A stretch of DNA of 64,000 bases. Origin: Tribonema minus. Its lineage: Eukaryota; Sar; Xanthophyceae; Tribonematales; Tribonemataceae. Below the pieces are notes generated by a model. The model made no database searches. It was not told the origin of the DNA and saw nothing but the letters and a program-made list of their open reading frames with translations. Positions 1,917-62,708 of this stretch are shown piece after piece. Position numbers and translations under genes: made by a program. Where the stretch lies: positions 1 through 64,000 of the forward strand of contig JAFCMP010000172.1 of NCBI GenBank assembly GCA_017506865.1, written 5' to 3'. Every line of letters begins with the position of its first letter. Within the stretch, counting starts at the first letter, position 1.

Positions 1917-4401
1917 ATGTCGACAACAAGGAAGTTCACCTGCGAGGATCTGCTGAAATTCAACGACATCAATCTGGATGTGCTGACCGAGACGGTGAGG
2001 TGCATCATGCGGCAGCTTCAATTGCTGACGTGAAGTTAGGCTTCACAACATGCTTGCTGCTGTCGATGTCTCTTTCTCAATGTCTCATGCGCGTGATCCA
2101 TCCGCCAAACTGCATCGCATTAGTGTCTGCAGCAGCTTGTGGAGGTCTGCATCATTAGCTGTTTTGGGACCGCTGCAAAGACTGTTGTGTTCATGAAGTT
2201 TTGTGACCGTAATATCACCATGCCTTCCCTCTACAGGCAAACTTTAGCTGGGTGTCGTCTGCAGCACAGTTCGTCAATCTGACTTCAAGTTGCTGCTTCA
2301 GCAAATGACCACAGCCCCCTGCTTTCCTTTGACCGTTGTTTTCACAACAGTACAACATGAGCTTCTACCTGACTTACTTGGCAAACTGGCCGGAGTACTT
2401 TCTAGTGAAGGAGGCGCCCGGAGGGCAGCTGATGGGCTATAGTAAGTACGCCACGCGCGCGCACTGGATCGTTTCACTGTGGTTGCAAAACCACTTCTCT
2501 TCATCATGTCGCACACAGCCGCCGTGCTCCAAACCCACAGTCACGGTGCACCGCATCATCATGTTTGATGTACACTACGCACGCTTCGCATCGAGTGTGG
2601 TGCACAGGTTCGATCTCGTGCATCACACAGCGCTCGCAGCACTGCTCGGCGCAAGGCGCCTGCAGTAGCTTGCTGATTCTGTTCTGAGTCTGGCCGTGGG
2701 CACCCTGCGGCGCAGGTGGGATGCGTCCCACAGCGTCTTAGAGCATCGTCAGGCATTCGCTCCCCCCAACCCCTGGTGCCAGCGCTGTGCTTGGTGTGCA
2801 CGTGAGGTGCTACCCTCACCCCCTGACCCTAGACATGGGCCTTGTATGTACAAAATGCCCCGCTGGTCTAGGCGGGGACTAGCATGACAGCCGCATAGCC
2901 GCTGCAACAGTCCGGATCGTAGAGTTCATCAGCACAACAATGCAATCGCGTGCCATACTTGAATCATGCAAGGCGCACAGGACTTCGTCCGTTCACCTCC
3001 CTGCGCGCTGCGTCGCACTCCCCAGTCATGGGCAAGGCGAATGGCGAGGGGGATCTGTGGCACGGCCACGTAACTGCCGTAACCGTCGCGCCGCGCTACC
3101 GGCGCCTCAAGCTGGCCAAGCAGCTCATGGACAGCCTGGAGCACGTGGCGGAATACGCACACAATGCCTTCTTTGTGGACCTGTTTGTGCGCGTGAGCAA
3201 TGCGCCCGCGATCGCCATGTACAAGCACTTTGGCTACGATGTGTATCGCCAGGTGGGTGCGGCCACGAGTCCACGAGCTCAACCCTAACTAACCCTACAT
3301 GAGGTAAAGGTGTTGATTCGACGTAGCTCGCTCTATGGTGGCACCCGGGTCACGCCAAAATGTGTGCATGGACTGGATGTGTCATGTGCCTGTGTTGCGC
3401 ACTGACCAATTTACAAATGGCTGTTCTGCCCATGGGTATGTTGCCATATGCATGTTGTTCATTTCGCATCAGACAAGACCTGCGGCGGTGGCGTTTTATA
3501 GTTTAGCAGCAAAGAAGTAGCGCAAAGGGGCGACCAGCAGCCTTGAAGTGCATCTGCAACGTATACGTACCCCAGCAGTTGCAATGCTCGCCGCACGGGG
3601 CACGGGGGGAGGGGGGGGGGCGGGCGCTGCCAAGCATGGCCGCCTGATCACGCTTTGGCAAATGTGCAGATTCTGGAAATGCCACGCGCTCCGATTCCAT
3701 GTAAACCGAATAGACTACGCTCAGCACTAGTTGCGTGCGGCATGGTCTGCCGCATTGGCCAAGCCGAGACTGGGCGTTCGGGCCGGAAGCGCGGTGCGGG
3801 CGCACAAAATGCGGTCACGTCACCTCGCGCGCGCCTGCATGTTGCCCTGCGCGTGCCAATCGCTTGTTCGACGGCGCCGCCACGGTGCGACGGACACGAC
3901 GGGGTAGTCTCAGTGCGCGCACTGGCCAGCCACGCCTCCAGGCAGCAGAAGCGCACTGTTGAAGCGCACTGTTGAAGTTGAAGTTGGTGCGGGTGACGCT
4001 CCAGTCAGTCTCCAGTGTGCCCAACCAGCGCCCTGGGCCACCAGCGAAAGCCCAAACATGGACATGCAGGCGGTGTGTGCCCGGCCCGGCAAGGCAAGCG
4101 CGGCTCCGCGCCTGATACGTTAGGCGCCAGTCGTTTCGCAGTTTCCGCTGTTTGTTTCCGTTGATCTGACATGAATGCCATCTGCGCGTGACAATGCCGA
4201 CAGTCGTTTCGCAGTTTCCGCTGTTCGTTTCCGTTGATCTGACACGAATGCCATCTGCGCGTGACCTGCGGACAGGTCATAGGGTACTACTCGGGGGAGG
4301 AGGACGCATACGACATGCGCAAGGCGCTGCCGCGAGACCCCGACAAGAGGTCAATGGTGCCTCTGGGGCGGAAGATCTTGCCGGAGGAGCTGGAGTGGTG
4401 A
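1917..4401 (+). CDS. NAA20: N-alpha-acetyltransferase 20, NatB catalytic subunit
   Basis: Four exons, 1917-1994, 2351-2441, 3026-3252 and 4276-4401, join in frame to 173 residues with GT-AG introns; animal NAA20 is about 178. NatB acetylates the N-terminus of proteins starting Met-Asp, Met-Glu, Met-Asn or Met-Gln, with NAA25 as auxiliary subunit, at the ribosome. Diagnostic segments include FTCEDLLKFNDINLD near the start, WPEYFLVKEAPGGQLMGY, GHVTAVTVAPRYRR, FFVDLFVRVSN and the C-terminal YYSGEEDAYDMRKALPRD. In the acetyl-CoA loop the usual RRxGxA pattern reads RRLKLA, so the glycine is a lysine; from memory plant NAA20 proteins also vary here. Intron 3 (3253-4275) ends in a tandem duplication that includes the acceptor AG. 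A TATA-like box lies 260 bp upstream. Confidence 0.95.
4131..4275 (+). repeat. Tandem duplication ending at the NAA20 exon 4 acceptor
   Basis: Two units, 4131-4203 and 4204-4275 (73 and 72 bp), are nearly identical over their first ~60 bases. Both begin TCGTTTCGCAGTTTCC and both end in GACAG. The second GACAG is the real 3' splice site of NAA20 exon 4; the first is a duplicated, presumably unused, copy. Confidence 0.85.
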
Positions 4402-6329
4402 CGTGCCATGTCATTAACTTCAACTTGAGGATGTATCAAACCCCCGCGATCGCCTTTGAGCACGTGCCCGCCATCATTTCTGGTAGGCGGTGTCCGCCCG
4501 GTTCTTCCCTGCGCGATGTCGCGGCTGCTGCGCCCCGCGCGCCTGTGCGCCACGCTGTTGTTTCGCTGCGCTGCCTCATGCACTGCACGGCCGCGGCGGC
4601 GCGCGCGTGCGGAGTATGGCGCTGAGCGGGCATGCACGTGCGGCACTGCGAGGATGGCGCAACGCTGCGCTCATCATAGCGCCGCGCCCGCAGTGGCTTC
4701 AAGGTGCCTTTGGTACAGTGGCGCTGTCAGTACCGTGTTTGGAGCGACGTGGCCGCGCTTCAGTTTTGCTGCTTCTGCTGCTGCTGCTGCCGCGCGTCGC
4801 GTGCGCTGGTGCGGCCAGCGCTGCCAACGCTGTGCCGCAATGACGGCAATGAGCTGTGGTGTGCCGCAATGTCCCTGTGCTGTTGTGGCGTGTCGCGACG
4901 TCACAGTCTTGCGCGGGCAGCGCTTGGGTCCATGTGAATATTCATGTGAACATGCATCTTACCATGTCGGGCTGGATCGGTATCTGCACTGCTGGAGAGC
5001 GCCTGTGCTGCATGTGCTGTGTCCACTGCATACTAGACTGTCTGATTGTCAGCACAAGGAATTGCTGCTTACATCTGTTGTCCGAAGTGCCTGCTGCTAA
5101 GTTGGGCTGGGGATTCAAGAAGGGCATTGTGCAAAAACAATGCTCACTTGCCGGCGTCAATGCAGGTTGTGCGTACGCTTTCTGGAATGTTGTCGACTGT
5201 GACTGTGTGCATGAAGCACCCATGACCACGATGTGCGCAAGCTCTGACGAGAGCGCGCATGTACTTTTTGGTCCTCTCGCTCAGGGATGAATGAAGACTA
5301 CCATTGGTGCAGTCACGTGACTCCCAGGCACAGCTCATACATTCAGCAAGTTGACCAGCATATACATAGCACGAGCAACAGCGACAGCGAACACTCCAGC
5401 GTATGGGGGCGTATACAGCAGATGTTCATATGCGTCTCATAGGCGTCATCAGATGGCTCCAGTCCGGGTATGGCACAGCTGGATGGTGTACTTGACGATG
5501 TTTGGAGCAGGTCATTATGCACATGATACAGCGCGCACCGTATGATGTTCGATGGCTCCGGCAGCGAGGGCACACATGTTCCGCGCGCGCGCAAAGGATG
5601 AAACCCTGGTTTTACCTACGCTGGAGCAAGAGGCCCATACGCCTGAGCCAGGGGATGCACGATTCGTATGAAGCATGTGATGTAGCTCTTGGTGGCGCCC
5701 GCTGTGTCAAATGTGTTCAGGGGCCTCTACACTGCAGCGGCGGCAGAGACGAGAAATGACTGGCATTGACAGCGCCCAGCGCGCAGTGCGCACAGACAAT
5801 GGATGGGTCGTAAACCCTCGTGCTTGTCCCGATGTTGCAAAGGCACCGATGCCACCTGGACGACCGACAAGGGACGCCTGACACGCACTCGCCAGCAGCC
5901 TCTTTAGTGCCAGCGGCGCAAACCAGCCGCTCCGTGGTGCTGTCAGGGCGCACTCGGCGCTGCCACAACTTCATGAGGGCCGGATTGCAGTGCAACAGCG
6001 CTCAGCGCCACGCACACGCGCGCAAACGGCCGCATGAGCCTCAGTAATCGCCGAACGCCTGCGCCACGCTGGCGCACGGCCAGTGCGCGGTGACGCAGCA
6101 GCCGTTGAGGTCACTGAGTCGCACTGGGCGCTAGGCTGCAAAGCTTCGCGTACTTTGGCTGCCACAGCGCTGGCGTCAGCAACGCCCGCAGTTCGACTCA
6201 CACTAGTGTCAGCAGCGCCCAGCAGAGTCCCTCTGCTGTCGCGCCAACACCGGTGCGCCCGCCGCCGCCGCGCCATCTCCGCCGCCGCCTCTGCTGCGCC
6301 GTTGCCGCCACCACTGCAGGTGCCGCCGC
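4402..6329. other. Intergenic region between NAA20 and the GAF gene
   Basis: About 1.9 kb between two convergent genes. AACTTCAACTTGAGG begins 13 bases after the NAA20 stop codon. Open frames here (for example 4456-5100) show no conserved motif, and frames on both strands are equally open, as expected in GC-rich DNA. No gene is supported. Confidence 0.5.
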
Positions 6330-7716: not shown

Positions 7717-10700
7717 TGCGGCTGCTGCGGCCGTCGTCGTCGGCGATGAACAAGCGCACGCGTGCGCGTAGCGCGTCTCGCGCCAGCGCCTCCGTTGCCG
7801 CCGCGACGGCCAGCGCGTTGATGCGCGGCGGCGGCGCGAAGACGCCGCCGTCGCCGACGACGGTCGCGACGAGGCGCGCGGAGGAGTCCAGCGTGCGCGC
7901 CGCGGTGGCGTCGCGTGCGGTGCTCTGCTGCTGCGCCTGCGCGACAGAGGGCGAGCGGGGGGGGGGGTTGGACTGGCATTTGAGGGCATGGGTGTGGGCG
8001 AAAGTTGGGCTCGGCGTGATGGCAACTGCGGCTCGAAATTCAACGTGCGCACCAACATTGCGCCTCACTTGTGTACGAGGTGGTGTTTTGTGTACGCAGG
8101 ATTCCAACAGCTTGGCTCTTGGGCCGGCTGCATGAGCTGCCGCCTGCCAATATCGTTGTGGTGAATGCACGCACAGAAGCGTGCAAGCAAGAACCACGGA
8201 GTGCGCGCCGTCGACGGAGAGTCATGCCGAGGATGATGCGGCGCCTCACGGCTATCCAGGGCATCAGCAGCGCTCTCCTGCCTCAAAGCGCCAGTGATGA
8301 GGTGCATGTGCATGATAACCCTAACCCTTAACCCTTCCCCTAACCCTAACCCTATCCCTAAGAGGGTGTTGGAAGGCACTCCGCAGACTGCCGCTCGGCC
8401 TGGTGCGACGCCTCTGCCCAGTCCGCACAAGGCCATGGCGTGAGACCAATCGAGAATTCTCATCGGGACGGTACCCACGGCCCGGCGGCACGCATCGCCG
8501 CCGGGCACGACACCGGCGCAGTCCGCACACCCGCCCTCCCCGCATGCGCGCACCGCTACACACGCCTCGCAGCCGCCGCACCTGCACGTTGCTCAGGCAC
8601 GACGCGAACTGCGCCATGAGGATGCTGCCGAGAACAGCGTCCACGTCCGAGAAGCGCGCGTGGCCACGGCGCGCCGCCGCTGCCGCCTCCGCGCCGCCGC
8701 CGCTATCGTCGTCGCTGCCGCCGCCGCTGCCGCCGTCGCCGCCGTCCTCGCCGTGCACGTGCAGCTTGGCGGTGAGCTGCAGCGCGCCGCCGCTGCCGCC
8801 GCGCGTGCCCGTGCACGGCACGTAGAGCGCGGCCTGCGGCGCGCGTGTCGTCGCGGCGTCCACCGCCGCGTCGTAGGACAGGTGCGCCTGCGCGGTGCGC
8901 GGCGCGGAGCGGTGTGGCGTGAAAGGCGTGCGTGGAGACGCAGGGGAACTCAACGAGGGGCTGGGCTGCTGCGGACGGCGGGGGCGTTTGCTCTGTTGGC
9001 TGCGCCTGTTCCGGAGGAAGCTTCCTTGTGGCATATGCGTGACTCGGCACAGCACACCCGACGGCATATATGACTTGAGGCGCGCGTGTTCTTCTTGTGG
9101 CATGAAATTACAGCAGAGAGCCGCAACGAATGCCGTGAGCTGAGAATAGGATCCTACCTGGCCTTGTGCGTGTGGCCACCAAGCTCGCTGCGCACAGTGC
9201 CTAACACCACCTCCCTTGTTGCCACCAGTAGCGTCATCCTCGAGTGACGCATTGATCGCCTCACACGCCGACCCTGGCCCTGCTGTGACCCGCGAAGTCG
9301 GCCGCAGCAGCGCTCACCTGCGTGTGCGTCAGATTCACGGGCTGCCCGCGCGTCATGGCCAGCTCCGCGATGCCCGTCCCGCCGGGCATGAGCGACCACG
9401 CCTGCGCCCCATCGCGCTGCACGAACAGCTGCTGCGGGGGCGCCCGCCGGTGCGCCGCGCTGCCGCTGCTGCCGTCCCCGTGCGGCCGCGCCGCCGCCGC
9501 CGCCGCCGCCAGGCCCATGCCCATGACCGGCACGCGCCAGTAGAGGACGGCGCGCTGGCACTCGAACATGCGCAGCGCGCGCCGCGACAGCACCTGCGCA
9601 TGTGCGTCCAGGATTGCAGTTGGCGGCTTGGTTGACTGAGGCTGTCGAGGGGTGGTGAAGGCTATGCCAGCCTTAGAGTTAGAGTAAGAGTTAGTAAGGG
9701 CGGCCGGCACAGATGGAGTGGCGGACGGCATGCGACGGCGCCTGCGTGCGCTGTTGAAGCATGTCAATGCTCAGCAGGCGCAGCTGGCGAGGACCCGAAA
9801 GTGGAACTACAACAACACCTTACGTCTTACCCCACCACTTAAGCTTCACTCTCCAGTTGCTCTGGCATCACGTGCTGCTCAGGCCATCAGCCTCAGCAGC
9901 AGAGACGCACACATCTTGATGGTGACCCGCGCCTCGCCTGCACCTGCACAGGTCCCCTTCAGCTCCACTTGGCACTTGCTGTGGCTCAACCGCCAGCGTC
10001 TTTGCCTGCGCTGCCCCCCAAGCACAAATCATACATACGTCTACTGCCGCGCACCTGCGCCGCGAGCTGCACCGGTCAGCAGGCGCCATTCGAACGCCAC
10101 CTGGCACTGGCTCTGGCTCCACCGCCAGCGGCTCTGCCTGCGCCGTCCCTAACCGCAACTCATACTGTAAAGAGACAAGTGCTTCTACTGCCGCGCACCT
10201 GCGCCACGAGCTGCTCCGGCGTCTGGCACGCACTCAGGCTCAGCAGCAGCTCCGACAGCTGCGACATGCGCTCCGCGACGCGCGCGGCGTCTGCGCCGCC
10301 GCCGCTGCCGCCACCGCTGCCGCCGCCGCCGCCGCCCTGCATCAGCCGCGTCATGGACGAGCCGAGGCCGCGCGCCGCTGCCGGCAGCACGCTCGACGGC
10401 TGGCGCAGCAGCTGCGGGTGGCGCGGCGACTGCGGCGCTGCGCGCCGCCCCGCGCGCGCGTCCGCCGCCGCGTCGGCAGCGCTCGGCACCGCGACGGCGA
10501 CCTCCGGCGCGAGCAGCGACCGCGCCTCGTCGAGGGCGCCGGCGAGGCCGCGCTCGCGCAGCGCGCTGTCGCGCACGCGCCGCCGCGCCGCCAGCACCTG
10601 GTGCGCACGCGCGAGTGAGGGGAGTGCGGGTGACGGGGGATGGGGGTGGCGACGTTGCTGCGTTCTGGTGTGATGGGTGCGCTTGGGGGAGTGCAATTGA

Positions 10701-12482: not shown

Positions 12483-13718
12483 ATGAAGCGCTACGGTCTG
12501 CTCGGCAACGCCAAAACCCTTAAAGCCCAGTCAGTCGCTGCCAAAACCGCAAAGGCGCCGCGTAAAGCCCCTGCTCGGGGGCCGGCAGTGGCAGCCTTCG
12601 GCGATGACTCCGATTCCGATGGAGGTGCAGGGGCAGAAGATCCCACCAGCAGGGCCGCAGTGAACAGGCGTCTCGCTGCGGAGCAGGCGGAGCGCGCACG
12701 GCGAATGGAGAAGGTGGCGGTGCAGGCCGTCATGGATGACCCCAGCGTGTTTGACTACGACGGGGTGTACGACGAGGTGTCGAAGGGCCGGGACGACAAG
12801 GCCGCCGCAGCAGCAGCCGCAAGGGGTAATGACAAGACCAAGCGGCTGCAGCCGCGCTACATCGGCAACCTGCTGGAGCAGGCGAAGCTGCGCACCGTCG
12901 AGCAGGACCGCGTCTACGACCGCAAGCTCGCCAAGGAGCGGGAGGAGGGGGACAAGGAGTTCGGCGCGGCGGAGATGAAGTTTGTCACGAGCGCGTACAA
13001 GGCCAAGCTCATGGAGCAGAAGAAGTGGGAGGTCGCGCAGGAGCGCGAGGCGGAGCGCGAGGCGCAGGCGGAGGCGGACATGAAGCGCGGCGGCGGCATG
13101 ACGGCCTTCTACTCCAACCTGCTCACCAAGAACATTGCCATGGGCGGCGACGTCGCCAACGCCACCAGCGCGTTCACCGCGGGGTCGCGCAGGCACGCCG
13201 CTGCCGCCGCCTTCAAGGTCAAGGCGGACGGCGGCGGCGGCGAAGCTGGTGGCGAAGCTGGGGCGTCGGCGGCGGCAGCTGCGGAAGGGGAAGGCAGCGG
13301 CGGGGGGGATGGGGCGGCGGCTGCTCCTGAGGAGGAGGACTATGGCCGGCCAAGCGCGCGCATGATGGACGCAAAGAAGCGGCAGCGCTCGCCGGAGAGC
13401 GGCGCGGCGGATGACGGCGGCGCTGCGGACGCAGCAACAGCGGCGGCAGCGGCAGCGGCGGCGGACGAACTTGGCGAGCCTCGCAAGGAACGCGAAACCG
13501 GAAGGCCTGAGAAGAGGGCCAGGGAAGAAGAGCAGCGAGCGCCAGACCGCACGCCGCGGCCTCCTGCTGCTGCGGCGGCGCCGGCAGCAGCAGCAGCAGC
13601 GCCTGCAGCGGCGGCGGCGGTGGACGCGGCGAAGGCGCAGGAGGATCGGGCTGCGGCGATAGCGGCGGCGAAGGCGCGCGCACTGGCGCGAAAACAGAAG
13701 GCGCAGCAGCCGACGTGA
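12483..13718 (+). CDS. NSRP1: NSRP1-like nuclear speckle splicing regulatory protein
   Basis: A single exon of 411 residues. The ATG at 12483 was chosen because MKRYGLLGNAKT matches the family's short N-terminal motif; the frame is open upstream only from a GTG. Conserved segments of the NSRP1/CCDC55 (DUF2040) family are in order: an acidic FGDDSDSDGG, DPSVFDYDGVYDEV, PRYIGNLLEQAKLRTVEQDR, KEFGAAEMKFVTSAYKAKL and a Gly-Met-Thr-Ala-Phe-Tyr-Ser-Asn-Leu-Leu segment. The family regulates alternative splicing in nuclear speckles. The C-terminal half is Ala/Gly/Glu-rich with Lys/Arg-rich patches and lacks long RS repeats. It is intronless, unlike its neighbours, and divergent from the GAF gene. Confidence 0.88.
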   Translation: MKRYGLLGNAKTLKAQSVAAKTAKAPRKAPARGPAVAAFGDDSDSDGGAGAEDPTSRAAVNRRLAAEQAERARRMEKVAVQAVMDDPSVFDYDGVYDEVSKGRDDKAAAAAAARGNDKTKRLQPRYIGNLLEQAKLRTVEQDRVYDRKLAKEREEGDKEFGAAEMKFVTSAYKAKLMEQKKWEVAQEREAEREAQAEADMKRGGGMTAFYSNLLTKNIAMGGDVANATSAFTAGSRRHAAAAAFKVKADGGGGEAGGEAGASAAAAAEGEGSGGGDGAAAAPEEEDYGRPSARMMDAKKRQRSPESGAADDGGAADAATAAAAAAAADELGEPRKERETGRPEKRAREEEQRAPDRTPRPPAAAAAPAAAAAAPAAAAAVDAAKAQEDRAAAIAAAKARALARKQKAQQPT

Positions 13719-22690: not shown

Positions 22691-25600
22691 TCAGCACACG
22701 CCGGCGGACGCGTCGGCCAGGCTGGTGACGTTGTGGAAGGGCCCAGGGCGCAGCAGCAGCTGCTGCGGTAGCGCCACTTGGTCCCTGCGCGCAGCAGAGT
22801 GCAACAGGAGTGAGCAATGCTCCCTCCGCAGCGTACGACTTTTGGTCGCGTGCTCATTGACGTGCGAGCTGTTGACGCATGCATGCAGCGCTTGCCGACC
22901 TCGTGCGGTAAGCGTTCCGCTGAGTCACGAAGGGGGCGCAGCAGCCGCTGCGAATCAATCACCACCGCGCACGAGTGCGCGCGCACAGTGCCCCCAACGG
23001 CACCCTTCTTCCGAGCACGCAGTCCAGTTTCAACCCCAACTTCAACTTCAATGTGTACGCGCACCTGCGCACGTGGCGCACCGCCTCCTCGATCATCATG
23101 AGCTCGGCGGCGGGCAGCGGCAGCGCGTGCGCAGCGCGCATGACGCGCATCGCGTCGACGCCGTCCGCGTCCGGGAACGTCGCCAGGAAGTGCGCGACGC
23201 CGTCGAACTCGCGGCACAGGAGGGCGTCCTCATTGAGCTCCAGCAGCGCGAGGCCTGCAGCGCATGCGCACGCGCGAAGTCCGCGTTTGAAGTTGAGGCC
23301 AGGGTTAAGTACGCGTAGTGTACAGGCTAGCAGTGCAACGTGTTAGGGTGGGCTGCGTGTAGCACGCGAACGGTTCAAGTAGTAATTACTTCAATCATCA
23401 GGATGGGACAAAGCATCAAACGGTTGAGCCTCGTGGCCAGCACCCAAGGCGAAACACGCGTCACGGCCGCAGCACCGCCGCCGTGCACACCCGTTCAGAT
23501 GAAGCAGGTCGCACAGGCGCCACTCATGCCCCGTCGAAGTGCACTCTCCACAACATCACTGAACACCACAAGATCAGGCCCCGAAATCCGGTGCCGGAGC
23601 ATCGCTCACCGGCGCGGAAGAACACAGAGAGCTCGCCGGACGTGAGCCACCAGTCAAACACGCGCGCGCGCGTCGCGTGCGGCAGCGGCACGGCGCACAG
23701 CAGCGTCTGGAACCAGCCGAAGACGACGAGGTCGAGCGAGAAGTCGAGGTCCGCGAGGTGCGCCGCGAGCGCCGGCAGCTTGACGGCCATGAGGTGCAGG
23801 AAGACCTCCACGCAGACCATGATGCCGGCGGTCTCCACGGCGTACAGCTGCGGGGGCGTGTACGGGGGGGGGGGGGGGGGGGGGGGGAAGGGAGGGGGGT
23901 CAGCCTGATCTATGGTTTCCAATGGCATACAGCCGTGTGAGGGGAGGGACTAGCCTAAGGGTCAGCCTGACTTGTGGTATGGTGGTAGGGGGGGGGGGGG
24001 GGGGGAGATGCAGAACGAGGGATCACTGTGGCCACTGCGTCCGGCGTACCACACAGTGCAGAGCTCGCATTTGTGGTTAGGCAAATCTCACAGTACATGG
24101 TCACTGGTGCTGGAAGCAGAGGGCGGCGTTCTCTGCCCAAGCGTCAGCGGACGTGCCCGCCCGAACAGAGGGGCTCTGCGCACCGCATGGGAGCGCACTC
24201 ACACGACCCTTGCGTGGCCGGCTAACCCTACACCTAACCCTAACCCTGGCCATAACCCTAACCCCAACCGCAAGGCCTGCCCGACAGCCTGCCCCCCTCG
24301 TTGCCCCGCACAAGCACAACATCCGAACCTCCTTATGAGGCCGCGACCCACCTCCTTTAGCCTGTACGCCTCAAACAGGCTCGCGTACAGCTCGTAGATG
24401 GGGCGCCCCGCGCGCGCGCCGCCGGGCTCGGGGTGCAGCACAATCGGCGCCGGCGCTGCTGCCGGCGCGACGACGGGCGCCTCCCACAGCAGCGACCACA
24501 GCGACGGTGGCGGCGAGCCTGGCGGAGCGTCGTCAGCGTCGTCGTCGATAGTGTTGTCTGCAATAGTAGAGGGGACGGGAGGGGGGGGGGGGGGGGGATG
24601 AGCGGTGTGCCGGTGTGGCGAGGTAGATGGCGTCAGCAGAGGGGAGGGGGGCATGCATAGCCTAGGGGGGTCACTACAAGCACTGTCGTGCGCTGGATTG
24701 ATGGAGCACATAATCCGCGTTGAACGATCTGCCGTTGCGTAGAGCTTGGGCCAGAGCTAGGGCAAGGGTGACGGTTACATACACGGCCGCTCGTGAAGCT
24801 TTGCGCAGCTGCACTGGCAGCACGGTGGTCAGTCCGTGCACGGGCAGCGTCAGCAGCGCTCACCATCCCACGCGCCGGCGCCGCTGCCATCGTCCAGCGG
24901 CTCCGCGGAGCACACGCGCATCAGGTGCCCCACCACCCTGTCCTGGCCCTGGCAGTAGCCCTCCGCGCTGGAGGCGCCGATGGCGGCGTACAGCACGTTC
25001 GCGAGCGCGCGGCGGCGTAGGCCCAGGGGCACGCGCTCGAATGCGGCGTTGGCCTGCGTGGCAGGGGCGAGGTGGTTGAAGTTGAAGTTTGGTACGTGGT
25101 GTGTGGTGTGTAAGTTAAGATGTGATGGGGGGTGGCGCGTGCAGGGGCGGGTGGCGCACGCGCGCACTGCTCTGAACCCGACGAGAGGTGTTGGGGAGGT
25201 ATGGCGATGGCCTCGACGGGCAGGCTGCGCGCCGCCGCTGCTGCCTGCTGCTGCTGCTGCTGCTGCTGGCGGCTGCTGCGCGCTGCGCACATGACACGGC
25301 TGCTGCAGCAGCGCTGATGCGAGATGATCATGCCCGTGGTACCGACTAGCGCACAGACTACACAACCCCCAAGTCCCTGCCTGCACACAACGGCAACGCG
25401 CAACGAGCACAGCCGCTTCCGCCTCTCTGCGCAAGCAAGACAGCAAGCAAGCAAACACCCCAGCTCCTGCGCCGACACGACCATCACCTGCTCCTCCTCC
25501 TCCCACTGGCGCAGCTGCTCCTCCAGCGCCGAGCGCCCCGCGCCCCACCCGCCCAGCACGCTCACGGCGCCGCCGCCGCCGCCCGCAGAGCGCGCGCGCC

Positions 25601-28600
25601 GGTGCGTCGAGCGGCCGAACGCGCGCGGCACGTCGCGCGCTACGAACGCCGCCTCCGCCGCCGCCTCCCCCGCGCGCACGAGCTGCGCGAACGCGTCCTG
25701 CGACACGCAGCCCGGCAGCCAAGGGGAGGGCGCCGCGGCGGCAGCAGCAGCAGCAGCAGCAGTAGAGTCGCTGGGGGCGCCACTGGCGCTGCCGTCCGTG
25801 GCAGCAGCGGCGGCGTCTGCGGCAGCGTCGGCGTCTGCGGCGGCGGCGGCGCGCTGCGCGGGTGTCGGCGCCGCCGCAAAGGCGAAGTGGCGGTACAGCG
25901 GCGCGCGCAGCGGCTCGGGCACGCCGCGCAGCGCGGCGGCGCGCTGCAGCAGCGGCAGCGTGCGCGGCGCCAGCGCGGCGCGCCACGCGCGGCATGCCGC
26001 CGCCGCCGCCGGCACCGCCCTCACGTCGCACAGCATGGCCAGCGCCGCTGCCAGCATGCAGTATGCTTCTGGCTCCTCATCGCCACCATTGGTATCAGGT
26101 TGAGACACTGGCGTCACAAGCACGCGGAGCAGCGCGGCGTCCCGGCGGTCGTCCGCAGGGGCGCGCAGCAGCGCCGCCGCCGCCACGGCGCGCACGGCGG
26201 CACGACTGGACGACGCCGGCGACGCGCCGCCGCGCTGCGACGACTGCTGGCGCGAGCGCGGCGGCGATTGCAGATCGAAGCCCCTCGCCGCCACCATCGG
26301 TGGGGCCTGCTGCTCTTGCAGCTGCGCTATCACTGCCTCGGACAGCGCCTCCTCTTCCGTCGTCATTGATGAGACGGTGTGCGCCGGCGCTTCTTGAAGC
26401 GCCGCTGCCGCCAGTTTCGCTGCCGCTGCCGCCGCCGCCGCCGCTGCCGCCGACTGCTGCCGCGCCGTCGGCGGCGGCAGCCGCAGGTTGAGCGCCGCCA
26501 CAGCATTGCGCGCGCGGCTGCGGCTGCCGCTGCGCTCACGCCCCCCCTCCGCATCGCTGCTGTACGACCGCGTCTCGCGCGCCGCTTCCTCTGCGTCGCC
26601 GCCGCCGCTGCGCGACGCCGCCGCAGCGCGTGACGGTGGCTGCGCGCCGCTGTTGCCTCTGCCGCCGCCGCCGCTGCTGCTGCTGGCGGCGGTCCTGCGC
26701 CGCCCGCCGAATGCGCGGATGCCGGCGCCGGAGCCCAGCTCGAAGGAGCGCGATGGCAGCGCGGTAGAGAGCCGCGACTTGGCGCGACCGAGCGCGCCGC
26801 CGCCGCCGCCACTGCCCCCCGCCGCTGCCGCAGAGCGCGCCTGCGGCGGCAGCGGGCGCGGCGACTGCGACGCCATGAGGCGCTGGCGGTAGTACGCCGG
26901 CATCTCGTCGATGTTGTCGCGCGTCGTGAAGCCGCCCCTCAGCGGGCTCGCCATGGCGACGCGCGGACCAACGTGAGTGCTGCCGCCTGCAGCGCCGGCG
27001 TCGCCGCCGCTGATGCCGAGCATCTTGAGCGCCTTGGCGTTGCTGCCGCCGGCAGTTCTGCCGACGATGGGGCTGCCGCTAGCGCTGGCGGAAGAGATGC
27101 CAAGAGTCCTGAGCGCCTTGGCGTTGACGGCGCCTGCTGGCGGCAGCGGAGACAGTGGCAGCGGCGCCTGCTTCCCACGCTGCGCAGCTGATGGCTCGGC
27201 ATCCGCGGCTGCTGCTCCGTCCGCGCTCAACTCTGCGTAAGGGTCTCCGCTCGCTGCTGCTGATGCCGCTGCAGGCGCAGCCGTCGCACCCAGCTCCCCC
27301 GGCGCTACGTCACAAACGTCGCGGTCAAGCACGGCAGTCGCCACTTGTTCCAATGCTGCGACGCCGCCGCCGCCATCGCTGCGCAGCGACACGGGCGGCG
27401 CGCCGACAGTCGGCGATGTCGCCTGCCGCTGGGGGCGCGGCGGCTGCCACCCGCTGAGCTCCATCGCGGACGCATTCGCGCGCAGCAGGCGCGGCTCCAT
27501 GAGCAGCGGCGGCTCAGCAGCAGCCGCAGCAGCAGCGGGCAGCTCTGGCGGCTGCCCACCCCAACCGCTAGCGGTACCTGCGGCCGTTGCGTCTGCAGCG
27601 GCTGCTGGCGCGTCGCTGATGCTGCCAGTGCCGCTGCTAGCAGCAGTTTTTCCGGCGGTGCTGCCGCTGCTGCCGCCGGGCGCGGGCGATGCCGCCGCCT
27701 GCCACGCTGGGCTCGGGGGGAGCGGCAGCTCCATTGTCAATGCGATCGTGTGGTACGAGTGGCCCTCGCTGCTGAGGTCTGCTGAGGAGAACTGCGTCAA
27801 GAGCTGCCCAGGCACAGAGCCGAGGTCCGACGCCAATGAGCTGGCCTGCAACGAGCGACCCCCCGTTGGAAGGTCGACGGTTACAGGTTGCGACATTGGG
27901 AGGGTTTCTGGGTTCGAGGCGGGCGAGTCAGCAGATGTTGGACCCCTGCAGTCCAGGTCTGCTGCTGGTACGACTGCGGCAGCTGGCGGAGCTGCGGGCG
28001 ACGCAGCGCCGGCCTCCGGCTCCGCCAGCGCCGGCAACGACGCAGCAGAGATCGGCAGCTCAGCCGACGGGGAGGTCGATGCGGCGGACAGCGGCAGCAG
28101 GACCGAGGGCGGCGACGACGGAGGCGACTTGGGTGGCACCTGCAAAGTCGGTGTTAGCAGTACAGCGTCGCTCAGTGATTGCGGTTCCGCGCCTGCTGCT
28201 GCTGCTGCTGCTGGTTGCCAGCAGTCGCGGCTGCTGCCGCCGAACGGCGGCGGCGTGCTGACGGCTGATGCAATGGCTGCTGTCTTTGATGCGTCTACTG
28301 CTGCGAGCTTGTCCGCGACATGCGCGTCACGGCCATCACGTGGCGGCAAGAGCTGGGTGACAGCAGCGGAAGGCGGCTGCGGCGGCGCGCTGTCCAGCCC
28401 GCGCGCCGTGCTGGCGTCGCTCGCCTGAGCGCTGCTGCCCGCGAGGTCACTGATCGAAGCAGCAGGCGCAGCGGCGGCGGGCGCCGCTCCATGCGCTGCC
28501 GATGCCGACGCAAGCGCCGACTTGCTCGGTGGCGCCGCGCCGCCAGCAGCAGCGCTACTGGCACCGACTGCGGGCAGCAGAACCCCCCCTCCTGCCTCCC

Positions 28601-52683: not shown

Positions 52684-55600
52684 TCACACCGTCCAATCGA
52701 CATCCAACGAACTCACGGCGCCGAACTCGCGCGTGCCGAACTTCCGCTTGGAGGCGCGCAGGTCGCACGGCCGCCGCATCGCCTCGCAGATGTCGCGCAG
52801 GCACGGGGTGAGCGCTGCCACGTTGTAGCCCGTGTAGCGCGCGAGCGTGGGGGACCACGCGTTGCGGTTGCAGGCGCGGCGCGACAGGTAGACGGCCGCG
52901 CTCGCCGCGACGGACGGCAGGTGGCGCAGCATGCGCGCCTCGAGGAGCATGCGCTCGCTGATGTAGCAGGCGAGCTGCACGATGCACCTGCGGAGGGGGG
53001 GTAAGGGGGGGGGAAGGGGATGAATGGGGATTGAGGACGGAGCGCTGTTGCAGCGAGATGCGAGGGTGCTTATGCGGCCATGTACGCATGTGCTCTGATG
53101 CAGCGGGAGAGCTGCATCATGCACTCTGATGCATCATGTGCTTCCAGGCCAGTGCGTGCAGCAGAGGGGGAGGGAAGGGGGCGAGGCGCGGCAATGCGGG
53201 TGACTGGAACAACACCGCAGAAGCTGCAGGGCACTGTAGTCAAGGCACCAGCGCTGACCCAACACCATGACCCACTGGAATTCAGCGCGTTGGCGTGGCT
53301 CCTCTGATGCGTGAGAACAGACGGGGGAGGGCGCTCTGCGTGTCGTTTCTGTACCTGCCTACATCACACCGCGCGTCAACCTCAACACTGTAAGCTTCAA
53401 TCACTGCCAACCTCAACACCGTCAACCTCAACACTGCAATCTCAACACTGTCCAGCCCAACACCGCCAACAACCTCACCACCGTCAACCTCACCACCTCA
53501 ACCTCAACACACCGTCAACCTCAACACCGCCAACCTCAATGCGCCGCAACGCAGACGACGACAGACGACGGTGCCCCCCCCCTCACCTGTCCGCGTGCGC
53601 CGCCTTCAGGTACCGCAGCAGGAAGCAGTACACCGTGGGGACGGTGAGGCGGAACTCGAGGCGCGCGAGCATGTCGCGCTCCGCCGCCAGGATCGCCTCG
53701 CGCGCGCACGCGCGGTCCGTCACGTACACGAGGTCGCACATCTCGGGCGGGTAGATCTCCTCGTACTTGGATGCGAGCAGCAGCGCCGCGACGCCCGCGA
53801 CCTGCAGCCCCTCGCGCGCGACCGTCGCCGCCGCCAGGTACCTGCGCGCGCAGCGGTGCGGTGCGGCGGAAGAAGCGCGGGGCGGTGACGCGCTGAGCAT
53901 GGCTTTCGTGTGTTGCGGCGTGCGGTGCGGCGGTGGGGGTGCGGCGGCGCGCAAAACGGTCACGCGCTGCGCAGGTTTATTATGTGTGGTGCGACCTGCA
54001 GCCCCTCGCGCGCGACCGTTGCCGCTGCCAGGTACCTGCAAGCGCAGCGGTGCGGCGGCGCGCGGTGCAGTGACTCACTGCGCAGGGTTTTCATGTGTTG
54101 CGGCGTGCGGCGCGGCGGTGGGGGTGCGATGGCGCGCGGTGCGGTGACGCGCTGCGCAGGGTTTGCATGTGGTGCGACCTGCAGCCCCATGCGCGCGACC
54201 GTCGCCCCCGCGAGGTGCCTGCGCGCGCAGCGGCGCGGCGGCGCGCTATGCGGTGGCGCGCCGTGCGGGGTGCTGCTGTGTTGCGCACAGTTTTCATGTG
54301 GTGCTATGTGCAGGCCCTCGCGCGCGACCGCCGCCGCCGCGAGGTACCCGGAAGCGCAGCGATGTGGGCGGCGCGCAGGGCGGTGACGCGCTGCATGGAT
54401 GTTGATGTGCTGCAGCGTGCTGCGCGGCGGCAGAGCACGCCAAACCCCTGTCTTGCGGGGCCTTTTTGAGTACAAGGCCTGGGGCACACCATGCTTCGTC
54501 CGCGTGCAGGGGGCGGAGAAGTCGTCATGGATGATGTGTGCAACCTGCCAGGCGCGCGGCGTGGGCGTTGAAGTTGTGCCGCGTACGCCGCGGCTGCGGG
54601 CACATGCAACAGGTGTCGGCGTCGCTCTCTCGAGGCCTTGAACTACGCGTGGTTGCGGCTGGTTGTCATGAGCTGAGTCCATGAGTACTGTACTCTCAAT
54701 CGATGCGCGCTGACGGCGGGAAGAAGTCCGGATGATCGGTTCAACATTGACTGCGAGGTGTCCGTGTCTTGTCACACATTTTGAACATCGCTGCCAACGG
54801 CCCCTGTCAAGGCTGAAGTATGATAAAGTATCATCAAGTATGATACTTGAAGCGCAAGGTTCACGAGCACCGTGCTTGCTGTCAATGGTCGCCTGGAGCG
54901 CGCAACTAGACTAAACTAGATTATACATACCCCTACAAAAACAATCTGTGTTGTCTCGTCTTATTAGCATGGACACAGTGCTCAGGCACGCTGAACAACA
55001 TGACAACATCGCCACACCGCACCTGTCGAGGGCGTAGATGGCCAGGTACAGAGTGTCCGGGACGAGGCGGAAGCGCATGTGGACCTCCACCAGCCAGTCC
55101 ACCAGGATGGCGCGCATGCGCGCGTTGATGTATGGCTGCTCCTCCATCAGATCGGCCGGGATGCGGTAGACGACCTCCTGTGAGGGGGGGGGGTGGGGGG
55201 GGCAAGGGAGGAGGGTCAGCTGTTCACGGCAACATGTATGCGTGTTGTATGTGCGTATCGGTACTGAGCAGTGCTGCGCGAGTTCAAGCGCCGCTGCTCG
55301 GTGACAGCGCAGCGACATGACGTCGGGGATTCCGCTGGCAGCGCGCCGCATGCGCGCAGGGGGCTGGCGGCGCAGCGTCAGCTCCGCTGTGCGCTGCTGC
55401 GGCACCTGTGTCGATGCGTGAGCGCTGCCGCAGCAAGCTGGTGCCCTGAGCGCTGCTGCAGCAGGGCGGTGCTCAGCTGCCGGCGATGCTGCCGGGGCGT
55501 CGTGCACGTCAGCGCACATCGGCGCACATGCATCACGGATTGTCATCATTAGACTGGGATCTGGTAGATCATGCAATGATGCATCGTACCGCACGACACA

Positions 55601-57206: not shown

Positions 57207-57519
57207 GGTACAGTATGTGCACCCCCAACTGCCACTAAGCAGAAATCCTCAGCTGAGCGCCACGGATTGCAGGCACCGGTGGTTAAGCACTGTGGCTAAT
57301 CATACGCTTCTGGTAAGCTCTTGCGCTGCTGCTGACGCCGTAGCGCTGCTCTTGTGGGCCGCTGTGCCTGTAGTACAACCCTAGATTTTTTTTCCCCCAA
57401 ACTTCACACACTACTGAGCACTGTTGCCCTGCCCAAAAGTTGCAAAAAATGAAGAAGCAGTGAGTGCTGCTGGTTATCGAGCATAGCAGTTAGGTCAGCA
57501 GTGCCTTCGCCAGGCCTGG
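57207..57519. promoter_or_regulatory. Divergent promoter region, cyclin B / SF3B2
   Basis: 313 bp between divergent ATGs. It contains a T run then C run (TTTTTTTTCCCCC) near 57387 and no clear TATA box. Shared regulation of a mitotic cyclin and a core splicing factor is plausible but unproven. Confidence 0.5.
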
Positions 57520-60500
57520 ATGACCACAGTGACTCAAAGTATGGAGCAGACGCAGCTGCAGCAGCAGCAGGAGCTGGCCAGCGAGCAGCGAAAACAAAGT
57601 AGGTGGGGAGGCATGCCAGGATTGCCTATGGTGGCGGTAGCACAGGAGCCTGCTCTTAATGGCAATGGCCACCGCAAGCTCACCAAAAATGAGAAGCGGA
57701 GACAACGGAAAAAGGTGGAGAAGCAGGGCAGTGATAAATCAGGTGCTGCTGCAGCGCCGCCTGATGCACGACGAGCGCAGCAGCAGCCCAAATCGGAGCA
57801 GCAGCAGCAGGCAGAGGCTCCGCAGCAACTTGATGGGGAAGGCGCTCTAGCCGTTGAGGTGGAGTATGTCGCACCCAGCGCCTCGGACCTGGTAGAGGGC
57901 TCCGGTATGGACGACGAGGTCGCCAAGGAGTTCAAAGAGATATTCGAGCGCTTCTCCAAGATCGGCAGGGCTGAGGAGGATATAGCTGCAGAGGAGGAGG
58001 ATGCAGCAGCGGCGGCGGCGGCGGAGGCTGCCGGCGGCGCAGCGGAGCAGCAGGCAGCCGAGGACGGGGGGGAGGAGGGGGAGGGGGAGGAGGGGGGGGG
58101 AGCCGGCAAGCTGAGCCGCAAGGCCCGCAAGTTGAAATCTCGTCTGACGGTGGCGGAGCTCAAGCAGCTGGTGCAGAGACCGGACGTGGTGGAGGCGCAC
58201 GACGTCACCGCCGCGGATCCGCGCATGCTCGTGCACCTCAAGTCGTACCGCAACACGGTCCCCGTGCCCCGGCACTGGTGCCACAAGCGCAAGTACCTCC
58301 AGGGAAAGCGCGGCATTGAGAAGAAGCCGTTCGAGCTGCCGGAGTTCATCGCGATGACGGGCATCAGCAAGCTACGCGACAACGTGGACGAGGCGGATGG
58401 GAAGCGCGCCAAGCAGCGCTCGCGCGAGCGCGTGCAGCCGAAAATGGGCAAAATCGACATTGACTACCAGGTACGCCAGCGCTGCAGCCCCACAGCGATG
58501 TTTGTTGCAGCTACTGTGTGGACTGCCCTCGATGTGCCTCTGGACTACGGATAGCTGGTGACTTGGCGGCTGATGGCGCCAAGTCACTGGCGATCGGCAG
58601 CGGCTGGCTGTCTGATCGCAAAATATGGCCCGCGTTGATTGGTGGCTGATTGGCAAGGCACCAGTGCGGCGGCACCGCCAACTGATGGGGCATGTTTGCA
58701 TGCAGCAGAGACGCCGCCGCAAAGCCCGCCGCCGGCGCCGCAGACTCCAGAGGGGCCTTGCGCCACCACTCCCAGCAGGCCAGCAGTGTCGCCTGTCATG
58801 TGCTTGCAGAGTGCCCGGCTATTCTTGGGCGGGCACCATTGAACCAACGCGCCGCCCCCACAGTGCTGCAGCGCTCAGGAGTCACTCACGCACAAGCGCG
58901 CCGCCGCCGCCGCTGCCAGCGCGGTCGTGCTTCTCGTACTTCCGCCGCAAAGCGCTGATTCTCGCGATACACCAACACGGTGTTGTTCATGGCGGGCGTG
59001 CATTACGCACGAGCTCTCGCCGTGCCTCTGCCCGGCAACGCCGATTCTGACAGTACACCAACATGATATCCTATTTATATTGTTCACGGCACGCACCGCC
59101 CCACTGCCTCACGGGCCGCTGACAGCTGCCCACCCACCCCCTCCCCCCAATGCCTGTGGCACGTCACTCCTTGCCTCTATGCGCGCGCAGGTGCTGCACG
59201 ACGCCTTCTTCAAGTGGCAGACGAAGCCGCACATGACCTCCGTTGGCGACCTCTACTTTGAGGGCAAGGAGTTTGAGGTGCGGCTGCGCGAGAAGAAGCC
59301 GGGGCAGCTGAGCGAGGAGCTCAGGGCAGCGCTCGGCATGCCGGACGGCGCGCCGCCGCCGTGGCTCATCAACATGCAGGTATGTACGTGTGTATTGAAG
59401 TTTGAGGTAGGGTATGCCGTGGCTCATCACATGCAGGCATGTATGTATTGCAGTTTGGTGTAAGGCATGTAAGTGGGTATGAAGGAGGAGCTCAGGGCAG
59501 CGCTTGACATGCCGGACGGCGCGCCGCCGCCGTGGCTCATCAACATGCAGGTATGTATGTATTGCAGTTCGAGGCAGTGTGTATAAGTAGGTATGAGCGA
59601 GGAGCTCAGGGCGGCGCTCGGCATGCCGGACGGCGCGCCGCCGCCGTGGCTCATCAACATGCAGGTATGCATGTATTGAAGTTGGAGGTAGGGTATGCAG
59701 GTATGAAGAGGAGCACAGGGCAGCGTTCGACATGCCGGCCGGCGCGCCGCCGACTTGGCTCATCAACATGCAGGTGTGTACGTGTGTATTGACGTTTGAG
59801 GTAGGGTGTGTGCAGGTTGGAGGAGCGGTGGTCAGCCACATGCGATGCAGGGCGGCAGCGTTCATCAGCGTCGTTTCACGTTACTGGTGAAAGCTGACAC
59901 CACCCCTCACCTCAACCCTACATTCAACAGCTGGCAAGCAGGCACATAGCAGCGCCTGACTGGCGGCGGTGCAAGCGTTGCTGTCACCGTCTTGGTCATG
60001 AGTGATGTGAGGAACCCTGGTGCCGTCTTGTGCGATATGTAGTGATATGCAACAGCGCTCCACGTGTGGACGTCATCAACGCTTAGCGCACCAGACCCCC
60101 TGCAGCAAAACTGTGCCCTCAACCACCCTGCTCGGACTGCGTAATGCCCGTAGCATGGCCCATTTGCACCCCACCACTGCAACTTCAAGTTGATGTTCAC
60201 TGACAATTTCTTTCCCCCCCCCCCCCCCCCCCCCCCCCCCATTACAGCGTTACGGCCCCCCTCCATCGTACCCCCACTTGCGCATCCCGGGCCTGTCCGC
60301 CCCCATCCCCCCCGGGGCCTCCTTCGGGTACCACCCCGGGGGGTGGGGGAAACCGCCGGTCAACGAGGCTGGGGTCCCCCTGTATGGCGATGTGTTTGGG
60401 ACCATGGGCGTGGAGGAGGAGGCTGCTGCGATTGACCGCTCGCACTGGGGGGAGATGGCGGAAGAGGAGTCTAGCGAGGAGGAGGAGGAGGAAGGTCAGT

Positions 60501-62708
60501 TATGAGGGGTCGGGTTAGGGCCAGCGCCATGTCATATGGGGTCAGTCATGAGGGGTAGAATGAGGGTAAAGGTTAGGGCCAGGGCCATGACATGCGGAGG
60601 AGGAGTCTAGCGAGGAGGAGGAGGAGAAGGAGGAAGGTCAGTTGTCAGGGTTTGGGGTAGTATATAGGGTTTTGCTTTGGGTCAGGATGATAGACAAGGG
60701 CACTGCTGGCTTGTTGTTGGTATGGATGACATGGCGCAAAGGAGGAATGTAGCGAGGAGGGGGACATCAATTAGGGTTAGGAGGAGTATGTAGGGCAAGG
60801 GTCAATCAATTAGGGTCAGGGGAAGTATGTTAGGGCCAGGGTCATAGACAGGGGCACCGCCGGCTTGTTGCTTGTTTTGGTGACATGGGCAACGCTCACA
60901 GCTTAAATTGGGGCGACTAATGTGCTGCTGGAGGACGGTCAGTATGAGGGTGCGGTATGGGTTTGGGTTGGGGAAGTCCAGTGGGAGATTAGCATTAGGG
61001 TTACGGCTAGGGCCAGTCGGGGTGAGGGCGAGCGCGAAAGGCAGGGGGCATTGCCGCCGCACCGTCGCTGGCCATTTCGTCGCAGGCACTTGCGGCGCGG
61101 AGCGCGCCATGGCTAGTGCTGTGCATCCGGACTAACCAGCAAGGAAAGGGTATCAGGGAGGCCATGGGGGGGCTGGTGCTGGTGACACTGTGTCGTTGCA
61201 GGTGCTACCGACATGGACGTCACCGCTGCTGGCGTAGCCCACCCGGACAGCAGAGCGCTCGTGCTGGGCCACGCTATATAGCCAAGGACGCAGTGAGCGA
61301 GGAGGGGAGAGGATGCAGCAGCGCTCAGCCCGGAGCCGTCGGTGCTGCTACTCGAGCGCACACACTCTGATCCCCCTCTCCCTCCCCCCCCCCCCCCCCC
61401 CCTCCCCCCCTGGCGCGCGCAGAGGAGGAGGCCGCGGAGGGCGGCGCGGGCGCGCTCACCGAGGCCCCGCCGACCCCCATGGAGGGCACGGAGTCCTCCA
61501 TGACGGGGCTCGAGACCCCCGACGCGCTGCTCGACCTGCGCAAGCGCGGCCTCGAGACGCCCTCGGACATCGGCACGCCCGCGCCGCGCGAGCTCTACAC
61601 GGTCGTGGGGGAGACGTCGGCGGGCGTCGGCGGCGCGCTGTTCGGCGCGGACAAGCGCTACGCCGTGGGCGGGGCGGCGGGGGCAGGGGGGAAGAAGGGG
61701 GGGAAGGGGGGGGAGGGGGCGGCGGATGTCGCCGTGTCCATCAACCCCGACGAGATCGAGGCGCAGCTGGAGGACGCCGAGGCGCTGCGCGAGCGTTACG
61801 AGGCGTCGCTGCAGGTGAGCGCTGCTGCTGCTTGAGCGCTGCTGTTGCTGCCTGAGCGCTGCTGCTGCCTGAGCGCTGCTGCTGCGTGAGCGCTACGAGG
61901 CGTCGCTGCAGGTGAGCGCTGCTGCTGCCTGAGCGCTGCTGCTGCTTGAGCGCTGCTGCAGGTGAGGGCTGCTGCTGCCTGAGCGCTGCTGCCGCAGTAT
62001 GGTGTGCGCGCGCGCGTGGGTGCGAGCGCTGGCCGCATGGCTTCTGTTGCGTACTCCCGCTAAGTGTTCAGAACCGAGATGCAGAAGGGAAGGGCCAGGA
62101 GCGTCCAGCGTGTAGCTGGACCTTGCCTTCCAACCGGTTTTCATGACCTTGTATGCAAGCCCTGGATTTGACGGAGGACAGGCGGGAGGGGGACGCTAGG
62201 GTCGCTTTCCTGTGCACTGGCACGCGCATTTGACTGCTTGCGCCACGCACTGCTGCTCGCTGTGCTCATCGACATGACAGCATGGTCATCTGTCGCTGCA
62301 CTGCAAGCGACGCTACTTGGAAAGCGCGATCACAGTGCAATCACTCCTGAGCTCCCGGGACCCTTTGCCTGAAGAAATATCACCAGTGTTTTCACGCCAA
62401 CAACAGGCATGGTGGCGCAACAGCGCCGGCGAAGAGAAACGCACTAAGGCACGCGCCGCTGCCTGCTTGTGTCCTCGTGCCTCGCTCACCGCCGCCATCC
62501 GACCATTGCGCCCTTTGATGACCAAACCCTAACTGTAACCCTAATTAATTAACCCAAACCCTAACCGTGGTGCACGGCTCAGGCGGCGCGGCCAGAGCGC
62601 GAGGACGTCAGCGACATAGTTGCCGAGGAGGCGCGCAAGCGCAAGCGCAAGCTCGAGAAGGGCAAGGAGCGCGCTGCGGCCAAGAAATCCAAGGACTTCA
62701 AGTTCTGA
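57520..62708 (+). CDS. SF3B2: Splicing factor 3B subunit 2 (SAP145/Cus1)
   Basis: Five exons, 57520-58470, 59191-59379, 60248-60494, 61423-61814 and 62583-62708, join in frame to 634 residues. SF3B2 is part of the U2 snRNP SF3b complex, binds SF3B4 and contacts pre-mRNA near the branch point. The DUF382 domain (about 209-335) has LTVAELKQLVQRPDVVEAHD, VPVPRHWCHKRKYLQGKRGI, ELPEFIAMTGISKLRDNVDE and HDAFFKWQTKPHMT. The PSP domain follows, GMPDGAPPPWLINMQRYGPP then SYPHLRIPGL. Acidic repeats (SSEEEEEE), MTGLETPDALLDLRKRGLET and a basic C-terminus (KRKRKLEKGKERAAAKKSKD) match the family. It is shorter than animal SF3B2 (about 895) but near plant length. The 3' edges of exons 2, 3 and 4 are each duplicated in the next intron. 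Poly-C tracts precede exons 3 and 4. Confidence 0.95.
59311..59773 (+). repeat. Four tandem copies of the 3' edge and donor of SF3B2 exon 2
   Basis: The true exon end (59311-59379) codes for EELRAALGMPDGAPPPWLIN then MQ, followed by GTATGT. Extra copies lie at 59484-59550 (AALDMPDG), 59595-59664 (identical peptide) and 59706-59773 (AAFDMPAGAPPTWLINMQ). Each keeps CATCAACATGCAG and a GT donor (GTATGT, GTATGC, GTGTGT). A shorter remnant, GCCGTGGCTCATCACATGCAG, is at 59416-59436. Spacings are 171, 114 and 109 bp. Each extra copy could code for 22 in-frame residues if spliced. Confidence 0.93.
60214..60240 (+). repeat. Pure C27 tract before SF3B2 exon 3
   Basis: Twenty-seven C precede ATTACAG and the exon 3 start at 60248. 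It is the longest coding-strand C tract in the window and takes the place of a mixed pyrimidine tract. Confidence 0.85.
60455..60642 (+). repeat. Duplicated 3' edge and donor of SF3B2 exon 3
   Basis: Exon 3 ends with GAGTCTAGCGAGGAGGAGG and GAGGAAG followed by donor GTCAGT. The same segment recurs at about 60594-60642 with an added GAGAAG and the same donor, GTCAGTTG. A weaker third copy (GGAGGAATGTAGCGAGGAGG) lies at 60740-60760. Confidence 0.85.
61791..61990 (+). repeat. Duplicated 3' edge and donor of SF3B2 exon 4, with GCTGCTG repeats
   Basis: GAGCGTTACGAGGCGTCGCT plus GCAG and donor GTGAGCGCTGCTGCTG (61791-61830) recurs 97 bp later at 61888-61927 with one change. Between and after lie many short units of TGAGCGCTGCTGCTGCC, including a further GCTGCAG-GTGAGG at 61949-61965. 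Confidence 0.9.
62520..62570 (+). repeat. Interstitial telomere-like repeats before SF3B2 exon 5
   Basis: AAACCCTAACTGTAACCCTAA and CCCAAACCCTAACCG lie 15-60 bp upstream of the exon 5 acceptor, so a degenerate CCCTAA array makes up part of the pyrimidine-rich region there. TTAGGG-strand units lie earlier in the same gene (60500-61020). Confidence 0.75.

Follow-up and report, generated by a model that had tools for sequence, protein, structure and literature searches.

The window, the whole 64-kb stretch analysed here, covers bases 1-64,000 of contig C172 (120,890 bases), in an assembly of 158 Mb and 554 contigs. It carries an NAA20-like gene, a putative GAF-family gene, a cyclin B gene and SF3B2, and sequence at or beside six of their exon edges is locally duplicated (Table 1). 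NAA20, cyclin B and SF3B2 are putative assignments, in line with Pfam matches of the encoded proteins to GNAT, to Cyclin_N and Cyclin_C, and to DUF382 and PSP, respectively. The first-pass annotation had described at least six duplications in unrelated genes, each of which was said to span an exon-intron boundary. All six are in place, and all are direct repeats. Recurrence at the edges of unrelated genes stands, although SF3B2 alone holds three of the six. The statement that such units always span a boundary is too strong, as only five of the six cross one and the NAA20 array abuts it. In the wider sample described below, 14 of the 30 genic arrays detected from non-coding sequence are purely intronic, and non-genic arrays are common.

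Table 1. Duplicated segments in the window and the exons that they adjoin.
Feature	Position	Strand	Description
NAA20 array	4125-4203 / 4198-4275	+	two direct copies, step 73
NAA20-like gene, last exon	4276-4401	+	working acceptor 4275/4276; gene model, GNAT domain in protein
GAF-gene array	9925-10075 / 10053-10219	-	two direct copies, 74%, crossing donor 10198/10199
GAF-gene exon with duplicated donor edge	10199-10597	-	gene model, exon score 70; family name putative
Cyclin B array	53797-54430	-	multi-copy, step about 183-194, crossing acceptor 53841/53842
Cyclin exon with working acceptor	53587-53841	-	gene model; Cyclin_N/Cyclin_C in protein, edge inside Cyclin_N
SF3B2 exon 2 array	59309-59826	+	units of about 114 bp
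SF3B2 exon 2	59191-59379	+	working donor 59379/59380; PSP domain spans junction
SF3B2 exon 3 array	60458-60518 / 60594-60660	+	two direct copies crossing donor
SF3B2 exon 3	60248-60494	+	working donor 60494/60495; gene model
SF3B2 exon 4 array	61784-61987	+	97-bp repeat (TRF) crossing donor, then short GAGCGCTGCTGCTGC-type repeat
SF3B2 exon 4	61423-61814	+	working donor 61814/61815; gene model

The NAA20 copies are 92% identical in one alignment and match at 73/78 positions in another, and they hold intron sequence only, with an exon part of 0; the array stops exactly at the acceptor, the exon starting at 4276. The other arrays take in a short piece of exon: 21 bp in the GAF gene (identical positions 19/21 in the exon part and 105/129 in the intron part), 45 bp in cyclin B (43/45 and 195/236), 37 bp at SF3B2 exon 3 (36/37 and 19/24) and 31 bp at SF3B2 exon 4 (29/31 and 70/76). 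At SF3B2 exon 2, each unit runs from the end of the exon across the donor into the beginning of intron 2, and more copies of the donor follow within the intron; the last of them matches at 60/66 exon and 34/37 intron positions. Five of the six duplications account for 12 of the 14 near HSPs in the window. The other two (within 27008-29968) are internal to coding exons predicted for a single long gene.

Beyond the window, the sample took in the rest of C172 and a 10-kb piece of each of 18 further contigs, which brought the total to 300,890 bases. Genes were modelled ab initio with a two-strand hidden Markov gene finder, which was seeded with hand-annotated exons, those of SF3B2 and of a single-exon gene (12483-13718), and then retrained on its own predictions. 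In 284 kb it predicted 38 genes with 203 exons (median 156 bp) and 165 introns (median 480 bp). Only once the edge and array tests had been defined were the last 16.9 kb obtained.

For the edge test, 60-bp windows centred on exon-intron boundaries were compared with sequence up to 600 bp away, and a copy was scored at a Smith-Waterman score of at least 44. In the first 284 kb a direct copy was found at 31/209 boundaries (donors 18/101, acceptors 13/108), and an inverted copy of the same score at none of the 209. Among comparison windows of the same kind, direct copies were found for 3.3% of 800 non-genic windows and for 6.9% of exon-interior windows, which gave inverted copies in 2.8%. Addition of the last 16.9 kb brought the count to 36/223 boundaries, or 30/223 after curation (about 13%, roughly one in seven). 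The curated 30 consist of 18 donors and 12 acceptors, and 6 of them are among the 68 boundaries of the window itself. Against the 39/800 intron-interior windows with a match, which were left uncurated, the curated 30/223 represent a clear excess (Fisher P = 3e-5); 18 of these 39 interior matches fall within edge arrays. The first-pass annotation was thus right that such copies are more frequent than chance would give, and edge copies recur outside the window, the curated cases being spread over 18 genes and 10 contigs in all.

Curation removed C172 536 (repeats within coding sequence), C172 65663 (low complexity), C172 114543 (coding repeat), L005 2554 (an exon part of just 8 bp), L016 7372 (poly-C) and L020 1512 (paralogous exon). 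It also removed L021 5033 and 5093, where the predicted exon is itself a copy; both were excluded from the 223 boundaries as well. At L020, a cysteine-rich repeat gene has two 189-bp exons (1513-1701 and 2389-2577) with related acceptor regions, which likely go back to duplication of a whole exon.

In the last 16.9 kb, 7/15 boundaries matched, or 6/15 once one coding repeat is dropped, and the arrays there comprise seven at edges (one doubtful), one intron-only, one non-genic and three at gene ends. Outside the window, edge arrays outnumber intron-only arrays by 25:5 at 45 bits or more and by 21:4 at 60 bits or more, in automatic counts that include one doubtful edge array. The automatic array counts are uncurated throughout: the doubtful array at 114543 was scored as edge, and the stretch 53957-54394 was scored as intronic, although it belongs to the cyclin edge array. 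Arrays of the same kind are found in non-genic sequence (14 at 60 bits or more), and purely intronic ones occur too. In two exons, L010 7038-7266 and L019 4073-4282, both edges are copied into the adjoining introns, the acceptor-side match of the former being weak (45 bits).

The copies share a simple anatomy. Among local duplications in the sample that score at least 40 bits and lie less than 300 bp apart, 85 are direct and one is inverted. In all 30 curated cases the copy lies on the intron side, downstream of donors and upstream of acceptors. The median exon part is 45 bp (range 0-81) and the median intron part 65 bp (range 1-250), and the copies are shifted by a median of 167 bp. An exon part of at most 81 bp in 30/30 cases would have a probability of 3e-6 under uniform placement across the boundary, and the exon part is less than half of the shift in 29/31 rows, where simulation gives a ratio of about 0.6. 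Nine of 24 pairs are contiguous. Among the 15 spaced pairs, the spacer is clearly homologous in three, part of a multi-copy array in one and marginal in two, and nine have no detectable spacer homology. Some cases would therefore represent a tandem duplication followed by decay, and others a discrete, displaced copy.

We consider it probable that these arrays arise by short local tandem duplication of an ordinary kind and are shielded by splicing, with a further, modest excess at the junctions; any function of the copies is putative. Throughout the non-coding genome, segments of about 50-300 bp would be copied to a nearby position without inversion, and we favour replication slippage or template-switch repair as the source of the copies. 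Where a duplication falls over a splice junction, the exon-side copy would retain the working site and the other copy would end up inside the intron, from which it is presumably spliced out, drifting neutrally. Events that cross an edge may in this way evade the selection that presumably purges duplications within exons. In addition, edge arrays would stay visible and resist deletion for longer than intronic arrays, as one half of them is conserved exon, and this slower loss may account for much of the excess. The first-pass annotation had proposed repair-driven duplication anchored at splice sites. Local direct duplication fits the 85:1 orientation; anchoring is only possible.

How much of the excess such survivorship can explain was addressed by simulation. 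Exon-anchored pairs remain recognisable for longer because the real exon is conserved, and in the simulations exon constraint alone lifts edge detection, to 0.18-0.21 from non-coding sequence and 0.35 from all sequence. These values depend on settings of our own choosing: unit sizes based in part on the shifts observed, divergence of at most 0.25 (or at set values), indel rates, fully conserved exons and a two-fold asymmetry in loss. The observed ratio of boundary to intron windows with a match, 0.115/0.049 = 2.35, exceeds the 0.33-0.55 simulated under uniform duplication and the 0.45-0.77 of its variants. With detection in all sequence, 17/21 arrays lie at an edge, against 0.35 simulated under uniform duplication (P = 2e-5), 0.31 with non-genic unit sizes (P = 4e-6), 0.20 with the exon part capped at 80 bp (P = 5e-9) and 0.55 when arrays away from edges are lost at twice the rate (P = 0.012).

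Detection was also run with the exons masked. Arrays that cross an edge then make up 16/30 (36 bits or more), 13/23 (45 or more) and 12/19 (60 or more), against 0.207, 0.205 and 0.197 under uniform duplication (P = 8e-5, 1.6e-4 and 4e-5) and 0.31, 0.29 and 0.29 under two-fold slower loss at edges (P = 0.01, 0.006 and 0.002). Survivorship as modelled is therefore insufficient, since two-fold slower loss predicts 0.55 and 0.31 where 17/21 and 16/30 are observed, and an excess in edge fraction of roughly two-fold remains beyond it.

This remainder, together with the short exon part, could be read as the mark of a more specific origin. The main rival reading, which we regard as possible but less likely than not, is that local duplication starts preferentially at splice junctions, which would then be mutational hot spots. 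Something linked to transcription, to splicing or to the chromatin of exon edges, such as R-loops, nucleosome edges or breaks, would set it off, with one breakpoint no more than about 80 bp inside the exon. On this reading, to which we would hold only tentatively, the outermost 20-80 bp of exons would be copied time and again, together with the splice site, into the adjoining introns across the genome, and would leave it with spare sites in reserve. Beside the edge excess that persists under exon masking, such a hot spot would fit the high frequency of matched boundaries in the later 16.9 kb and an exonic part that never exceeds 81 bp. The latter is not predicted by simple survivorship; it may reflect a junction hot spot, or selection against copies with a longer exon-like piece.

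Several tests argue against the hot spot. When a match in non-coding sequence was required to come within 4 bp of the edge, 9/30 arrays qualified against 0.18 expected (P = 0.07) and 8/23 against 0.17 (P = 0.03), and under two-fold slower loss this strict masked test gave no excess (P = 0.53 and 0.32). Intronic windows beside exons show no clear rise over intron interiors, whether 40 bp long (17/223 v 33/709, P = 0.09; 10/223 v 23/709, P = 0.41) or 60 bp long (24/215 v 54/702, P = 0.12; 16/215 v 42/702, P = 0.43), a comparison that is blunt because the interiors hold the partner copies. Masked duplication coverage rises from 5% within 0-30 bp of the exon through 8-9% (30-200 bp) to 11% (200-400 bp) and is 8% further away, against 4% in non-genic sequence. 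Tandem Repeats Finder arrays with a period of at least 50 show no edge bias: by rule, two are edge and five intron arrays, and by hand three are edge, one abutting and three intron-only, with a further six non-genic. Nor are duplications associated with G4 motifs (7/24 v 49/183, P = 0.81), runs of C or G (7/24 v 41/183, P = 0.45) or GC content (P = 0.78). Very long poly-C tracts do occur right before acceptors in the window (60214-60240 and 61372-61410), and similar ones in other genes, with no association with duplications.

The edge excess is real in this sample, yet it is separated from survivorship only in part. Had duplications been equally common away from boundaries, the idea of an edge-anchored process would have been undermined; with the exons masked this is partly so, while the array test retains its edge excess. 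The apparent exclusivity of edges arises in part because exon-anchored duplications stay detectable for longer.

The fate of the intronic copies bears on whether they are put to use. Over 24 pairs, the exon part differs at 76/944 positions and the intron part at 310/1826, a ratio of 0.47 (0.35-0.62); over 31 rows, one of them doubtful, the ratio is 0.49 (0.37-0.66). Constraint on one side only predicts 0.5. Mismatches in the exon part fall at 20/315 first, 19/313 second and 37/316 third codon positions. Both the ratio and this pattern are as predicted for an inner copy that is free to drift at every position and a real exon that changes chiefly at the third. The intronic copies thus drift neutrally. 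That selection keeps them as decoy or alternative splice sites, the second explanation offered by the first-pass annotation, is accordingly unlikely, and we give it very little weight. In favour of decoys, the GT or AG is retained in 28/30 copies, although this is probably close to what neutral drift allows at such divergence. Against decoys stand the divergence of an unconstrained copy, the frame-breaking indels inside copied exon parts (e.g. 11 bp at L011 8378, 14 bp at C172 118055 and 1 bp at L019 3105) and a shift that shows no bias towards multiples of three (8/13/9 modulo 3). We therefore reject selected decoys: the ratio of 0.47 and the codon positions reveal no conservation beyond neutral drift.

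An artefact of assembly or of wrong gene models appears still less probable. The models are ab initio, and a few low-scoring predicted exons are themselves copies (e.g. L010 6863-6922 and L021 5034-5093), but the copies differ by 5-25%, which is too much for mis-assembly. The gene models are in turn supported by two observations. The product of a predicted three-exon gene (L006:3582-5962, minus strand) is identical at 179/179 residues to the light-harvesting protein XLH8 (PDB 9m4f chain 8), and in several genes Pfam domains run continuously over duplicated junctions, namely Cyclin_N, Peptidase_M41, ERAP1_C, two protein kinases, NAD_binding_10, Vps23_core and PSP. The remaining matches of the L006 product are to chlorophyll a/c-type proteins. 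To judge by this protein, the genome is probably that of a yellow-green (xanthophyte) alga or a near relative.

The arrays can be compared with several known systems. Internal gene duplication, as Gao and Lynch reportedly described it in 2009 (PNAS), is said to copy exon and intron sequence directly and at high frequency. Here, likewise, a segment is copied in direct orientation inside a single gene. The arrays differ in that the copies cluster at exon edges, and exon number and coding sequence are apparently unaltered. We know of no edge preference in the work of Gao and Lynch.

In the intron-gain model of Rogers (1989) and Hellsten (2011), as outlined in a review (PMC3443670), an exon segment that bears AGGT is duplicated in tandem. 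Here, too, tandem direct duplication involves splice-site-like sequence, and many junctions read AG|GT. The model would make the arrays intermediates of intron gain, which we regard as highly improbable and reject: what lies between the copies is not the intron, as the predicted shift of one intron length and the mutual identity of donor and acceptor edges are found in 0/24 pairs.

Beside internal gene duplication, the nearest parallel is the RdRp gene of potato (PMC4974935), in which duplication of an intron end and exon start led to use of a cryptic donor and to splicing of a new intron, as seen in RNA reads. Units that join an intron end to an exon start correspond to the acceptors of the present set (12/30, 11 of them with exon sequence). 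The two differ in that no new intron is apparent here, as judged from DNA alone. Introners resemble the arrays in affecting splice sites of many unrelated genes genome-wide; in contrast to them, each unit here copies the edge of its own gene. For the 301-bp NAA20 stretch, the one unit searched in the whole genome, a dispersed element is disfavoured, its single match being itself. A literature search that covered few subscription papers returned no report of a genome-wide exon-edge bias, and the arrays may constitute an edge-biased variant of internal gene duplication that is new with respect to the literature searched.

Duplicated splice sites are raw material for alternative splicing, intron gain and exon gain. 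With 30/223 of the examined splice sites accompanied by a dated, neutrally decaying duplicate, the rate of origin, the tolerance of such copies and any attraction of duplication to junctions would all become measurable. If junctions do prove to be hot spots, about one in seven splice sites would carry its own fossil, and with it a spare site for new exons or introns. Surveys of intragenic duplication will need exon-masked controls, because conserved exons keep old edge copies visible.

Repeats of other kinds occur in the same DNA. In the window, short interstitial TAACCC / CTAACC repeats at 8316-8361 and 24222-24269 resemble degenerate telomere repeats. A 15-bp minisatellite (53374-53539) and a 44-bp tandem pair (37389-37479) both lie in non-exon sequence, away from confident exon edges. 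Elsewhere, two pairs of inverted repeats, L015:3499-3788 / 4168-4454 (290 bp, 77%) and L006:2331-2363 / 2682-2714 (33 bp, 100%), lie about 0.35-0.7 kb apart and are perhaps the ends of mobile elements.
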